Source: Oscillospiraceae bacterium | GTDB taxonomy: Bacteria; Bacillota; Clostridia; Oscillospirales; Oscillospiraceae | Length of the DNA stretch: 60,296 nt | Assembly (NCBI GenBank): GCA_017527825.1 | Contig: JAFXPO010000023.1 | Span: 1-60,296 of the forward strand | Direction of reading: 5' to 3' | Part shown: in pieces, positions 12,207 to 46,471 of the stretch | Position numbering within the stretch: position 1 is the first letter of the stretch | How the letters are laid out: every line of letters begins with the position of its first letter | Notes under the pieces: generated by a model | What the model was told of the DNA's origin: nothing | Databases searched by the model: none | Seen by the model: only the letters and a program-made list of their open reading frames with translations | Made by a program: the position numbers and the translations under genes

Positions 12207-12581
12207 GTGATCAATATCAATCGTTTTCAGAATGGCTGCGGCGTGAACGGCGCGGCGAATAACAACAGTTGCGGCTGCAAGTGCTTCTACCCCTGCGGCA
12301 TCGGCTGCGGGACTGTCACTTATGTCGGCCCCACGGGTCCCACCGGTCCGATGGGTCCCACCGGTCCTCAGGGCATTCAGGGTATCCAGGGTGTGCAGGG
12401 CATTCAGGGTCTGACCGGTCCCACCGGTCCTGCTGGTGCTGTGGGCGCGACCGGTCCTGCCGGTGCTGTCGGCGCGACCGGCCCGCAGGGACCTGCCGGC
12501 GCTGCCGGTGCAACCGGCCCTGTCGGTCCCACCGGACCCCAGGGCGAGATCGGTCCCACCGGTAACGTAAAAATGCGGTAA
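12207..12581 (+). pseudogene. Collagen-like protein, N-terminal half (gene split by a 33.9-kb element)
   Basis: The frame encodes a Cys/Asn-rich head (NRFQNGCGVNG, SCGCKCFYPCGIGCG) and about 26 Gly-X-Y triplets of GPT/GPQ/GIQ/GPA/GAT type. Native sequence stops at 12562; the last five codons (NVKMR) and the TAA belong to the inserted element. The missing C-terminal part is at 46472-46637. Joining the halves gives an uninterrupted 174-codon frame. The start is unusual: the GTG at 12207 lies inside a near-perfect Shine-Dalgarno (AGAGGGTGATCA), so translation may begin at the ATC at 12216 with ideal spacing. Such proteins are often spore- or cell-surface filaments. The truncated product may still be made. 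Confidence 0.88.
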
Positions 12582-12584
12582 TAG
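12555..12584 (+). repeat. Left end of the mobile element (attL): core repeat and inverted repeat arm
   Basis: CCCACCGG at 12555-12562 is directly repeated at 46464-46471. Immediately inside, 12563-12584 is a 22-bp arm that matches the reverse complement of 46442-46463 at 18 of 22 positions, including the run AAATGCGGTAAT (12571-12582). The direct repeat is made of Pro-Thr-Gly codons of the collagen gene. Confidence 0.88.
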
Positions 12585-12619
12585 GAAAATCAATGGTTTC
12601 GTTGGTTTCCTATTACCGC
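12575..12619. repeat. 14-bp perfect inverted repeat at the left end
   Basis: GCGGTAATAGGAAA (12575-12588) and TTTCCTATTACCGC (12606-12619), 17-nt spacer. The left arm shares GCGGTAATAG with the element's terminal repeat, so the left end carries a second, oppositely oriented copy of the probable recombinase half-site. It could also end transcription running in from the collagen gene. Confidence 0.75.
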
Positions 12620-12620
12620 T

Positions 12621-12667
12621 GTTAGCGTCTAGCGATAATCACCGCAAGGTTCCCGCCGGACGCTAAC
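12621..12667. repeat. Second stem-loop at the left end
   Basis: GTTAGCGTC (12621-12629) and GACGCTAAC (12659-12667), perfect 9-bp arms, one base after the previous repeat. The right arm contains the stop codon of the small minus-strand ORF. Confidence 0.6.
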
Positions 12668-12809
12668 ACCGCACATACGTATCCACAGGATTGCCTGACT
12701 CGTCATAAAACGAAACTGCTGAAAAGGTAACGTCGGCACTTGGACCTGTCAAGAAAAGTGCAGAGAGAAAACCCACAAAATGCGCTGCTTGGTCAGGCGA
12801 AGAAATCAT
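12663..12809 (-). CDS. Small ORF or gene remnant near the element's left end (48 aa)
   Basis: ATG 12809 to TAG 12663-12665. The product starts MISSPDQAAHFVGFLSALF and ends with FYDESGNPVDTYVRC, the latter looking like part of a beta-strand module of a secreted protein. A GAGGAG lies about 20 nt upstream of the ATG, too far for a good ribosome site. It is probably a remnant or a non-coding stretch; not recognised. Confidence 0.3.
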   Translation of the reverse strand: MISSPDQAAHFVGFLSALFLTGPSADVTFSAVSFYDESGNPVDTYVRC

Positions 12810-12840
12810 CAAAAAACTGCGTTGCTATTCTCCTCGTTTT

Positions 12841-14655
12841 TTACAAATACCGCTCCAACGTTTGGCGGAGGGAAATCTTATCCTGCTTATAGCGCGATTT
12901 GATGCGCTCGGAATACGCCGCGAACGCCTCGCACATCGTGGGGTGCGAGATCAAAAACGTGATCTGCGGCGGCTTGATGCGTTTGACTGCGACGGCGTGC
13001 TTGGAAATCACGATCTGCGTGTTCTCAAACGGCACATCCGGCAGGACGCAGAGCCGATAATTGGGATGCTCCTCGGACAGCCGGAGAACGCTGCGGATAT
13101 GCGACGCATACTCCTGCGGTGTATAGAAAAGCGACACGCCCGGCAGATCAATGGGGATTCGATCGTCGAACAGACGCTCGTCGTCGGCAACGGGGATGCA
13201 CTCGTGGACGAAGCCCGTTTCCAAATTGCGCGCCAGCAGCCGCCCGCGCGCCTGCCATGCGGCGAACACCGCCTCCCGCGCATCCTGATCTGCATCGCTG
13301 CGCGTCAAAACGGCAACCAGCGTTTCCTCGTCCATGGTGGCAAGCGAAAGCGACATGCCCAGCATCGTCATGCCCGTTTCGCCGATCTGCGAAAGGATCT
13401 CGTTGGACGCGTTCTCGTAAATCTTCACCAAGTGCTTGGACGCGGCAAGCAAGCCGTCATAGGCAAATTGCGCCGCCTCCAAAAGCGGCGCCTCCGTCTG
13501 ATAGTGATAGACGCCGTGCCGATCCTCCTGCCCGACGACGTTGCTCGCCTTGATGCAGGCAACGTTCGGGCAGAGAAACAGCGTATTGGAAAAGCGCGCG
13601 TTTCGCTCCTTTTTGCAATAATACGACTCGATCATGCCCGACATATACAGCGGCAGCCAGTTGGTGATCGCGCCAATCATCTCGTCCAGATCGCGGTCAA
13701 TATTATGAATGATGGTAATATGGATTCCCTGTTTTACGCACTCCATCATCAGCATTGCCCACTTGACGCGAAATGCCGGATCCGCCATCCATTCTGTGCT
13801 CTGATCGGAATAGAGGTACAGCACCTTCGCCTGCGCGCGGATCGCGCTGCCCAAAAAGCGCAGCACGGCGGCGCGCAAGCCCTGCGCGCCGAAATAAGTC
13901 TCCCGCTCGTCGATCTGCGCTGTTTCATCCAGCGCCGACGAGAACAGCAGCGGCGGCAGCTTCGGCTCAAACGCGAACGCATCGATGTTCTCCAGCAGCG
14001 TTTCCACCACGGAGCTATCGTCCGCCCGATCCGCATCAAACAGCCAGTCGCGCATCCGCGCGATCGCGTCCTCTTCATCGTGCAGCGCGTCGGCGGCAAC
14101 GTTCATCATCGCAGCAAGCTGCGCCGTTTGATTTCGCTCGCGAGCGCGCGCCGTCAACACCGCGCAGATTGCGTCCGTCGTCTCCCGATTGGATTTCGGC
14201 GAGCGCAAACCGTTGCGAAAACGGCTGATATAGGACGGGTCGACATTGACCAATCGACCGAGCCGAATGTTCGACAGCTCGGTCAGTTCCATCGCCGCAC
14301 CCAGTTTTTCGCCGAAGGCGCGGTACGGCGTTTTTTCTTTTCGCGGCGTCGACGGCTTCGTCGGCGCCGTTTCTCCGTCATAGAGCCAGTGCGCCAACTG
14401 CGTCTTGATCTCCGACGCAGAAGCACGCTTTTTACAGCCGATCAACTCGCAGAGCGCGGCGACCTTGCCGCTTTCGTCCGCGCAGAGGTATAACCCGTCC
14501 GCAAGCCGCCGCGCACCGACGCCGCCCGCCTTGGGCACACGTGCGCCGCTGAGCATGCGGCTGACGTTGGATTTATCGCAACCCATCATCCGCGACAGCG
14601 CCGCCTGTTTGACCGCCAGCAGCGCGCAAATTTGGTTCACTCTTTCCGTAAACAT
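12841..14655 (-). CDS. Large regulator with two N-terminal HTH domains, next to the giant gene
   Basis: The start is ATG 14655 (MFTERVNQICALL) after a GGTGGCGGG; a longer frame to 14742 has no ribosome site. About 604 aa. Residues 1-60 form an XRE-like helix-turn-helix (KQAALSRMMGCDKSNVSRML), and residues about 105-165 a second one (LSNIRLGRLVNVDPSYISRF). The long C-terminal part has segments such as YLYSDQSTEWM, IHNIDRDLDEMIGAITNWLP and LFLCPNVACIKASNV; I know no named domain for it with certainty, though similar architectures occur as regulators in Clostridia. It is divergent from the giant gene across a 212-bp gap with a 19-bp palindrome, so control of that gene is the simplest inference. 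Confidence 0.8.
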   Translation of the reverse strand: MFTERVNQICALLAVKQAALSRMMGCDKSNVSRMLSGARVPKAGGVGARRLADGLYLCADESGKVAALCELIGCKKRASASEIKTQLAHWLYDGETAPTKPSTPRKEKTPYRAFGEKLGAAMELTELSNIRLGRLVNVDPSYISRFRNGLRSPKSNRETTDAICAVLTARARERNQTAQLAAMMNVAADALHDEEDAIARMRDWLFDADRADDSSVVETLLENIDAFAFEPKLPPLLFSSALDETAQIDERETYFGAQGLRAAVLRFLGSAIRAQAKVLYLYSDQSTEWMADPAFRVKWAMLMMECVKQGIHITIIHNIDRDLDEMIGAITNWLPLYMSGMIESYYCKKERNARFSNTLFLCPNVACIKASNVVGQEDRHGVYHYQTEAPLLEAAQFAYDGLLAASKHLVKIYENASNEILSQIGETGMTMLGMSLSLATMDEETLVAVLTRSDADQDAREAVFAAWQARGRLLARNLETGFVHECIPVADDERLFDDRIPIDLPGVSLFYTPQEYASHIRSVLRLSEEHPNYRLCVLPDVPFENTQIVISKHAVAVKRIKPPQITFLISHPTMCEAFAAYSERIKSRYKQDKISLRQTLERYL

Positions 14656-14723
14656 CTTCCCGCCACCTATCTTTTCTCTCTGACGAGACAAGCGTATCGC
14701 AGATCGCAGAAAAACGCAAGAAG

Positions 14724-46030: not shown

Positions 46031-46043
46031 ATGGTACCAGTAT
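46031..46043. promoter_or_regulatory. Third copy of the GGTACC operator
   Basis: ATGGTACCAGTAT, identical to the reverse complement of the central part of the recombinase 2 site. It lies 18 bp upstream of the -35 of the small DNA-binding gene, between two divergent promoters. Confidence 0.7.
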
Positions 46044-46060
46044 TTGTGCAATATCTACAA

Positions 46061-46089
46061 TTGCATTCATATCCACCTTGTAGTATAAT
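46061..46089 (+). promoter_or_regulatory. Promoter of the small DNA-binding protein gene
   Basis: TTGCAT (46061-46066), 17-bp spacer, TATAAT (46084-46089). Confidence 0.65.
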
Positions 46090-46119
46090 AATGAACACTA
46101 TTTTTTGAGGATGACGGAC

Positions 46120-46329
46120 ATGCCCATTTCGAAATCGCAACAGCGCGCCGTGCAGGCTTACAACAAAAAAAGCTATGATGACATTCGCGTTCGAGCCAAA
46201 AAAGGACAGCGCGCTGTCATCCAATCCCACGCGGAGCAAATGGGGGAATCCGTTAACTCATTTGTGCTTCGCGCTATTGATGAAACTATAATGCGGGACA
46301 AAAACAAAGAAAACAAGCTGGATACCTGA
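46120..46329 (+). CDS. Arc/ribbon-helix-helix-like protein, candidate element repressor
   Basis: The start is taken as ATG 46120 (MPISKSQQRAVQAYNKK), nine bases after GAGG; the ATG at 46111 abuts that site. 69 aa, basic. A short strand (SYDDIRVRAKKG) is followed by two helices (RAVIQSHAEQMGESVNSFVL, then RAIDETIMRD), the layout of ribbon-helix-helix regulators. Similar small proteins are common on Clostridial integrative elements. Its promoter is flanked by operator copies that recur in both recombinase promoters, so it is the obvious candidate to bind them; this is inference. Confidence 0.75.
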   Translation: MPISKSQQRAVQAYNKKSYDDIRVRAKKGQRAVIQSHAEQMGESVNSFVLRAIDETIMRDKNKENKLDT

Positions 46330-46352
46330 CGCATCGCTCGGGCATCCAGCTT
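46315..46352 (+). terminator. Stem-loop at the end of the small DNA-binding gene
   Basis: AAGCTGGAT (46315-46323) / ATCCAGCTT (46344-46352), followed by AGTTTATT; it overlaps the stop codon. Confidence 0.6.
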
Positions 46353-46355
46353 AGT

Positions 46356-46445
46356 TTATTCAGCATTCTCTGCTTTTTCCGCCGTCTCCATGAACTCTAC
46401 ACCCGCAATTTGTAAAAGCTCACCATGCTCCGTGTAAAAGGCCAT
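46356..46445 (-). CDS. Possible 29-aa ORF starting inside the right inverted repeat
   Basis: ATG 46445 lies in the terminal arm; the product starts MAFYTEHGELLQIAGVEF and ends AEKAENAE before TAA. It has reasonable codon use but no well-placed ribosome site. Weakly supported. Confidence 0.22.
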   Translation of the reverse strand: MAFYTEHGELLQIAGVEFMETAEKAENAE

Positions 46446-46471
46446 TACCGCATTTGCACCTTACCCACCGG
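46442..46471 (+). repeat. Right end of the mobile element (attR): inverted repeat arm and core repeat
   Basis: 46442-46463 is the inverted partner of 12563-12584 (18/22 identical, with ATTACCGCATTT at 46444-46455), and CCCACCGG at 46464-46471 repeats 12555-12562. Confidence 0.88.

Follow-up and report, generated by a model that had tools for sequence, protein, structure and literature searches.

A 33.9-kb serine-recombinase element within a collagen-like gene of an Oscillospiraceae genome, a likely gene-intervening element of the mother cell

What kind of element would lie within a collagen-like gene whose two halves still fit together, and is that gene ever made whole? This question is raised by a 60,296-nucleotide (nt) stretch of DNA from an uncultured member of Oscillospiraceae (GenBank assembly GCA_017527825.1, contig JAFXPO010000023.1, positions 1 to 60,296; genome G000), hereafter called the window, which carries a 33.9-kb serine-recombinase element at 12563-46471. 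The answer that we favor with some confidence is that the element splits a predicted sigma-K-controlled BclA-like gene and is excised in the mother cell by one of its two large serine recombinases, SR1, together with a small helper, restoring the gene. Developmental excision is likely. The target resembles a late gene of the mother cell for the spore surface, and the promoter of the SR1 unit is of a mother-cell type, which makes this a likely gene-intervening element of the skin and gin sort, one that belongs to a visible family and has both a new target and a new cargo. The initial annotation had known of no described element of this type built around one giant surface gene; the intervening elements skin, gin, and yin have been described.

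The ends of the element and its insertion into the collagen-like gene are near certain. Removal of 12563-46471 leaves one collagen-like frame of 356 + 166 nt (174 codons with the stop) whose Gly-X-Y register is intact across the junction, exactly as the initial annotation had predicted, and the direct repeats and inverted arms that it had named are both present:

12555..12562, no strand: 8-bp core CCCACCGG, left copy (sequence inspection)
12563..12584, + strand: left arm, which gives the split gene a five-codon in-frame tail and a stop
46442..46463, - strand: right arm (sequence comparison of the arms)
46464..46471, no strand: 8-bp core CCCACCGG, right copy (sequence inspection)

The left arm and the right arm, the latter read on the reverse strand, are identical at 18 of 22 positions. 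The core by itself is poor evidence for the ends; it occurs seven times on the + strand of the window, five of them inside the left collagen half. The arms are better than chance, because the 12-mer AAATGCGGTAAT, which both contain, was found only twice in the 2.6-Mb draft genome, at the two element ends, and arms scattered at random through the genome were thus not what was found. A search for the arm pattern in 394 genomes of the order, a sample without the relative G002 described below, gave a match only in G000. Read from its right end, the element comprises a 72-codon open reading frame (ORF), the second recombinase SR2, a 46-codon ORF with SR1, a giant gene on the opposite strand, and a helix-turn-helix (HTH) regulator. 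A Pfam scan of the element ORFs, covering the small ones only in part, detected no phage structural genes and no relaxase or conjugation genes. A source in a viral-contig collection was rejected; SR2 had no relative there.

A sister element likewise supports true ends and a recoverable empty site. The orthologous collagen-like gene of G002 contains a 16,098-bp element whose core is the same and whose arms closely resemble those in the window; the left half of the G002 gene is VIDINRFQNGCGVNGAANSNN..., and the right half lies on another contig beside the orthologous neighbor gene. SR2, SR1, the giant gene, and the HTH regulator have equal order and orientation in the two elements, with identities of 86-89% for SR2 and 68% for SR1, and the G002 giant gene has 3175 codons and other domains (Flg_new repeats and SLH). 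No counterpart of the 72-codon ORF turned up in the element of G002. The insertion is in the first CCCACCGG repeat of the collagen gene in G002 and in the last in the window. Comparison with relatives, which the initial annotation had proposed as a way to reveal halves that are native and separate, instead showed the collagen-like gene whole in one frame at 7 of the 14 loci adjoining the same neighbor gene; the other 7 comprised two uninterrupted to the contig end, two interrupted copies, one with only the C-terminal half (G001), and two without a collagen frame. The G001 locus (contig C46; L025, 3549-8404) has the collagen C-terminal half without the N half a few kilobases downstream of an SR2-like recombinase (54%), and is perhaps a third element at the collagen-like gene.

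The target of the insertion is probably not arbitrary, to judge from the following features:

12143..12169, + strand: putative sigma-K-type promoter, AC-N16-CATAGAATA
12207..12562, + strand: collagen-like gene, 5' half (Pfam Collagen, 3e-17)
46472..46637, + strand: collagen-like gene, 3' half, whose frame joins the 5' half
46749..47789, + strand: TPR-containing protein (domain scan), neighbor of the collagen-like gene in relatives and anchor of the empty site; probably a glycosyltransferase, a name that does not come from a family match

The pattern AC-N16/17-CATA, which was picked after the alignment had been viewed, lies 67-95 nt before the conserved NRFQ/NRYQ motif at all nine loci with a readable 5' half (the window, G002, and the seven whole genes), with a background of 0.0135 per 150 nt. 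The strict sigma-K consensus matched once in the window, at the collagen gene, which is below a rough chance estimate; this lone match is uninformative, and the conservation across loci carries the argument. Given this conserved promoter, the presence of SpoIIIAE and SpoIVA in G000, and the parallel with bclA1-3 of Clostridioides difficile, which are described as sigma-K controlled in a species where a sigma-K promoter has AC and CATATAAT boxes (PMC3789822), we infer that the collagen-like gene is a late mother-cell, BclA-like spore-surface gene. In eight of nine orthologs, this one included, a Shine-Dalgarno-like GAGGGTGATC is accompanied by ATC where G011 has ATG (window 12204-12224), and the ATC at 12216 is a possible start codon (AUC) of the gene.

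The recombinase unit is arranged as follows:

42025..43620, - strand: SR1, large serine recombinase (domain scan)
43626..43763, - strand: 46-codon ORF directly 5' of SR1 (conserved ORF), candidate recombination directionality factor
43798..43821, - strand: putative sigma-E-type promoter of the small ORF-SR1 unit, TATG-N16-CATA
44092..44105, no strand: palindrome TACTGGTACCAGTA within a sigma-A-type promoter (by eye) upstream of SR1
44119..45831, - strand: SR2, second large serine recombinase (domain scan)
45983..46042, no strand: this palindrome in two incomplete copies, in the gap from SR2 to the 72-codon ORF
46111..46329, + strand: 72-codon ORF, possible regulator (weak, sub-threshold TacA1 antitoxin match)

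SR1 and SR2 both have Resolvase, Recombinase, and zinc-ribbon domains. The block YATG-N16-CATA, which looks like a sigma-E-type promoter by the Bacillus subtilis consensus, lies upstream of the small ORF at all 10 distinct loci of the recombinase clade with the conserved small ORF (two at the collagen-like gene, five at a pdaB-like gene, and three elsewhere or unplaced); its background is 49 in 1,561,666 strand-bases, or 0.0072 per 230 nt. Next to the -35 box, at positions left free in the motif search and with G002 omitted from the count, identities were 1.0, 0.78, 0.61, 0.44, and 0.78 in five of six columns and 0.19 in the sixth, compared with 0.23-0.38 in 37 background hits, and the identities of the boxes themselves (0.67 and 0.66) are inflated by the letters fixed in the motif search. 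YATR-N16-CATA with the same spacing precedes spoIVA at 4 of 14 loci and the pdaB-like gene at 5 of 11. SR1 tentatively nests among the recombinases of the pdaB-like site (support 87/89 in a tree drawn open), tentatively because the tree holds one mistranslated outgroup row (out_G031b). SR1 and SR2 also have a duplicated promoter-leader (window 43850-46090, - strand), with GCGGCAAC...GCGGCAT after the operator; an Rfam search of the recombinase leaders returned a single match at chance level and none above it.

Other split genes were found in the same genome and in its relatives. A sigma-K model search of G000 placed sigK in two pieces, model positions 3-114 on contig C18 and 108-224 on contig C48, with the N half, which rests on the model match, adjoining a serine-recombinase ORF similar to SR1 and SR2. 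In G011 both pieces are on a single contig, separated by about 15 kb that include an SR1/SR2-like ORF, and G003 is similar; the recombinases at sigK in the genus are 20-24% identical to SR1 and SR2. Such a divided sigK, one part of which adjoins a serine-recombinase-like ORF in G000, G011, and G003 (L086, L087, L088, and L089), is a skin-type arrangement in Oscillospiraceae. The pdaB-like gene encodes a deacetylase nearest to spore PdaB (E-values of 4e-61 to 8e-60 for three proteins); in G000 it is interrupted by a 5,257-bp element that has arms of the same type and no giant gene. An interruption at this position also occurs in G001, G002, G008, G014, and Oscillibacter ruminantium, and the gene is whole in G004, G005, G013, and G015. 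A second split site in this gene, QWDV/DSLDWK (between V and D), was seen in six genomes of the genus and in O. ruminantium (L061, L063, L065, L067, L068, L070, and L072), and G001, G002, G014, and O. ruminantium have the gene split at both sites.

The arms at the pdaB-like site resemble those of the collagen elements (TGACGGCNNNATGCGG versus TAACGTAAAAATGCGG). A profile built from nine pdaB-site arms ranked the left end of the window element 1st among about 120,000 positions and the G002 element ends 1st and 2nd among about 40,000; it was applied only at predetermined ends, because as a blind scan it was not significant (30 simulated windows reached 18.7 bits, versus 16.3 for the left end). 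The 8-bp spacers differ, with CCCTGGGG at the pdaB-like gene and CCCACCGG at the collagen-like gene, and this difference between similar arms suggests retargeting.

Both collagen halves show purifying selection, with ratios of nonsynonymous (dN) to synonymous (dS) divergence of 0.02-0.05 between the two interrupted copies. Over 44 codons each, the window and G002 differ in the C half by 15 synonymous changes and 1 nonsynonymous change (dS 0.546, dN 0.011) and in the N half by 13 and 3 (dS 0.63, dN 0.03). The dS values of SR2 (0.46) and the small ORF (0.45) are about equal to those of the host genes (0.385 for SpoIVA and 0.76 for the neighbor gene). The two halves have thus probably diverged in the split state and remained functional, which is what rejoining by excision would predict.

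Under the proposed mechanism, sigma-E would read the promoter of the small ORF-SR1 unit and sigma-K that of the collagen-like gene, and SR1 with the 46-residue putative directionality factor would excise the element in the mother cell. SR2, with its sigma-A-type promoter and palindromic operator, would integrate or mobilize the element. The vegetative line would keep the element and might express the giant gene, and the forespore would pass the element on; its loss from the mother cell would cost nothing, because the mother cell dies.

The cases of developmental excision described in PMC5595907, PMC5025042, PMC10747680, and PMC4191935 concern single sporulation genes of a few Bacillus and Clostridium strains. 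Among the closest is gin, in gerE of Bacillus cereus ATCC10987, which is described as having three site-specific recombinase genes and no phage-related genes; GirC and the small factor GirX excise it, GirA and GirB being dispensable, and excision restores the frame of a mother-cell gene (PMC5595907). In the window, too, the frame of a gene, here a predicted mother-cell gene, would return on removal, as judged from sequence alone, and in gin a sporulation-timed recombinase and a small factor suffice, a parallel to SR1 and the 46-codon ORF. The imperfect inverted repeat is 27 bp with a 9-bp core in gin and 22 bp with an 8-bp core here, and the present element differs in its collagen-like target, Oscillospiraceae host, 27-kb surface gene cargo, and excision that is predicted. 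In the published account of skin, in sigK of C. difficile and B. subtilis, a large serine recombinase, under sigma-E control in B. subtilis, acts in the mother cell (PMC5025042). A large serine recombinase is shared with skin, as is the split of a mother-cell gene, here a predicted one, and sigK itself is in pieces beside a recombinase in G000, whereas the sigK recombinases of the genus are only 20-24% identical to SR1 and SR2, and target and cargo are different here. The yin element, in yabG of Clostridium botulinum, is reported to have a target under sigma-K and a small candidate directionality factor for which a sigma-K promoter is proposed (PMC10747680); inverted repeats with a short direct repeat, the target (here with a putative sigma-K-type promoter), and the small candidate factor are common to both, whereas yin is prophage-like with one recombinase named and the window element has two. 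SP-beta, whose excision during sporulation is described as reconstituting the spore-envelope gene spsM of B. subtilis (PMC4191935), differs in being an active prophage. Two adjacent large serine recombinases also recall the staphylococcal cassette chromosome (SCC) as outlined in PMC5595907, and CcrB is the best NCBIfam match of both SR1 and SR2. Membership in SCC was rejected, with scores of 137.5 and 119.6 bits versus a 900-bit Ccr cut-off and another target. A literature search, mostly of sources outside subscription journals, found no intervening element tied to a collagen-like gene, Oscillospiraceae, a giant gene, or a polysaccharide deacetylase.

Several observations weigh against mother-cell excision. 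Neither an excised form nor a circle nor an empty allele from the same species was seen, and the best protein match of the joined collagen frame was 67% identical, with no near-identical whole protein among the best 120 of 4847 hits. The sigma assignments rest on motif patterns picked after alignments had been viewed; letters after CATA are weakly conserved (0.28-0.5, versus 0.24-0.28 in the background), and the exact geometry is missing at 10 of 14 spoIVA loci and 6 of 11 pdaB-like loci. Sigma-A-type promoters (by eye) with TACTGGTACCAGTA-like operators precede SR2 and, at a greater distance, SR1, and vegetative expression is therefore possible. The sigK pieces of G000 are on different contigs, so the DNA between them is unread; the pdaB-like proteins score 202-206 bits, below the model cut-off of 237; and the arm profile ranks the right end of the window element only 32nd to 144th, depending on profile length, among about 120,000 positions. 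The dS of SR1 (1.93) is far above that of SR2, and the recombinase module may therefore have been reshuffled. The insertions in different repeats make a recent move possible, and purifying selection could predate that move. Sporulation of the uncultured host is itself presumed.

Some of these observations would suit a conventional integrative mobile island for which a seldom-needed gene is a safe place to land, with SR1 and SR2 integrating it and releasing it for transfer only, no developmental timing, and the collagen gene lost in carriers. The sigma-A-type promoters with a palindromic operator ahead of both recombinases, the cargo block shared with another genus at 97.7% identity, and the different collagen repeats hit in the two genomes would all be at home in such an island, which nevertheless seems unlikely: both halves keep frame and promoter under strong purifying selection, SR2 and the small ORF look about as old as the host split, the recombinase unit has a mother-cell-type promoter at 10 of 10 loci, and in the same genome a related element splits the pdaB-like gene and sigK is in pieces. 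Somewhat less probable again is a switch that serves the host, a refinement compatible with developmental excision, in which the element mainly carries the giant surface protein and the split makes that protein exclusive with the spore collagen coat, the host gaining from the timing. The order arm-SR2-SR1-giant gene-HTH regulator-arm is kept in two elements with different giant genes, and regulator and giant gene are transcribed divergently from either side of a palindrome, as such a switch might require; the related 5.3-kb element at the pdaB-like site of the same genome lacks a giant gene, and a 41% relative of the giant gene in G024 has no recombinase flagged by a simple motif scan of 54 kb. 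A fault of assembly, or a pair of native collagen genes whose repeats coincide by chance, might be suspected in a 51-contig draft in which CCCACCGG is common in collagen repeats, but the second element in G002 with the same kind of ends and the whole single-frame orthologs make this scarcely credible, and it was rejected.

The initial annotation had described the element as built around one giant surface gene. The gene and its regulator are as follows:

12841..14742, - strand: HTH-domain regulator, divergent from the giant gene (domain scan)
14724..14742, no strand: perfect palindrome TTGACAAAATTTTTGTCAA, upstream of the giant gene where the longest HTH ORF has its 5' edge
14868..41834, + strand: gene for a giant secreted protein, about 8,988 codons when counted from the likely ATG

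The 9007-codon ORF (14811-41834) is real and is the dominant cargo; its probable start is the ATG at 14868, ahead of a signal-like peptide (by eye), and its product has CARDB, fn3, PKD, and Big domains with a dockerin at the C terminus. As a description of the element type the phrase did not hold, and an element defined by the giant gene was rejected, given the different 3175-codon gene in G002, the 5.3-kb pdaB-site element without one, and the context in G406, a genome of another genus. There, 29,049 bp are 97.7% identical to window positions 12821-41854 (regulator plus giant gene), with no alignment of more than 60 bp at an E-value of 1e-10 beyond this block in the 55 kb compared, and other serine recombinases than SR1 and SR2 adjoin it, which argues that cargo and recombinase modules exchange. 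Since the G406 block has other recombinases and the 54 kb around the G024 relative had none flagged, the giant gene is a transferable cassette and not what defines the element. Matches to it at an E-value of 1e-50 or better were found in 6 of 250 genomes of the family, G000 included. Between the recombinases and the giant-gene block of G406 (contig C12; L128, 5192-6700) lies a gene with Nmad3 and DUF1016_N domains. Further giant surface-type genes near serine recombinases have 2381 codons (L031, 560-9914, contig C22 of G000) and 1997 codons (L029, 9084-17216, contig C6 of G007).

A broader proposal, which we hold possible but somewhat doubtful, is a mother-cell-timed element family in gut Oscillospiraceae that keeps arms and recombinases while changing its 8-bp core between sporulation genes, so that a split spore gene harbors interchangeable giant cassettes. 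Up to three mother-cell genes appear to be split in one gut genome, among them a predicted spore-surface gene whose product might face the host; if the proposal is true, at least three spore genes (sigK, pdaB-like, and collagen-like) would be assembled by excision in each mother cell, and the giant surface protein of vegetative cells and the collagen coat of spores would be mutually exclusive. Within such an element, a bacterial surface gene of very large size would have a place to reside and a means of spreading, as the 29-kb block at 97.7% identity in two genera suggests, and kindred arms, recombinases, and mother-cell-type promoters with differing cores, targets, and cargo make target choice and its change testable. 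Outside the element, the window contains another large serine recombinase (57725-59449, - strand; 38% to SR2) in DNA of lower GC content, near two tRNA-Ser genes (56588-56796), which perhaps belongs to a further element cut by the contig end.

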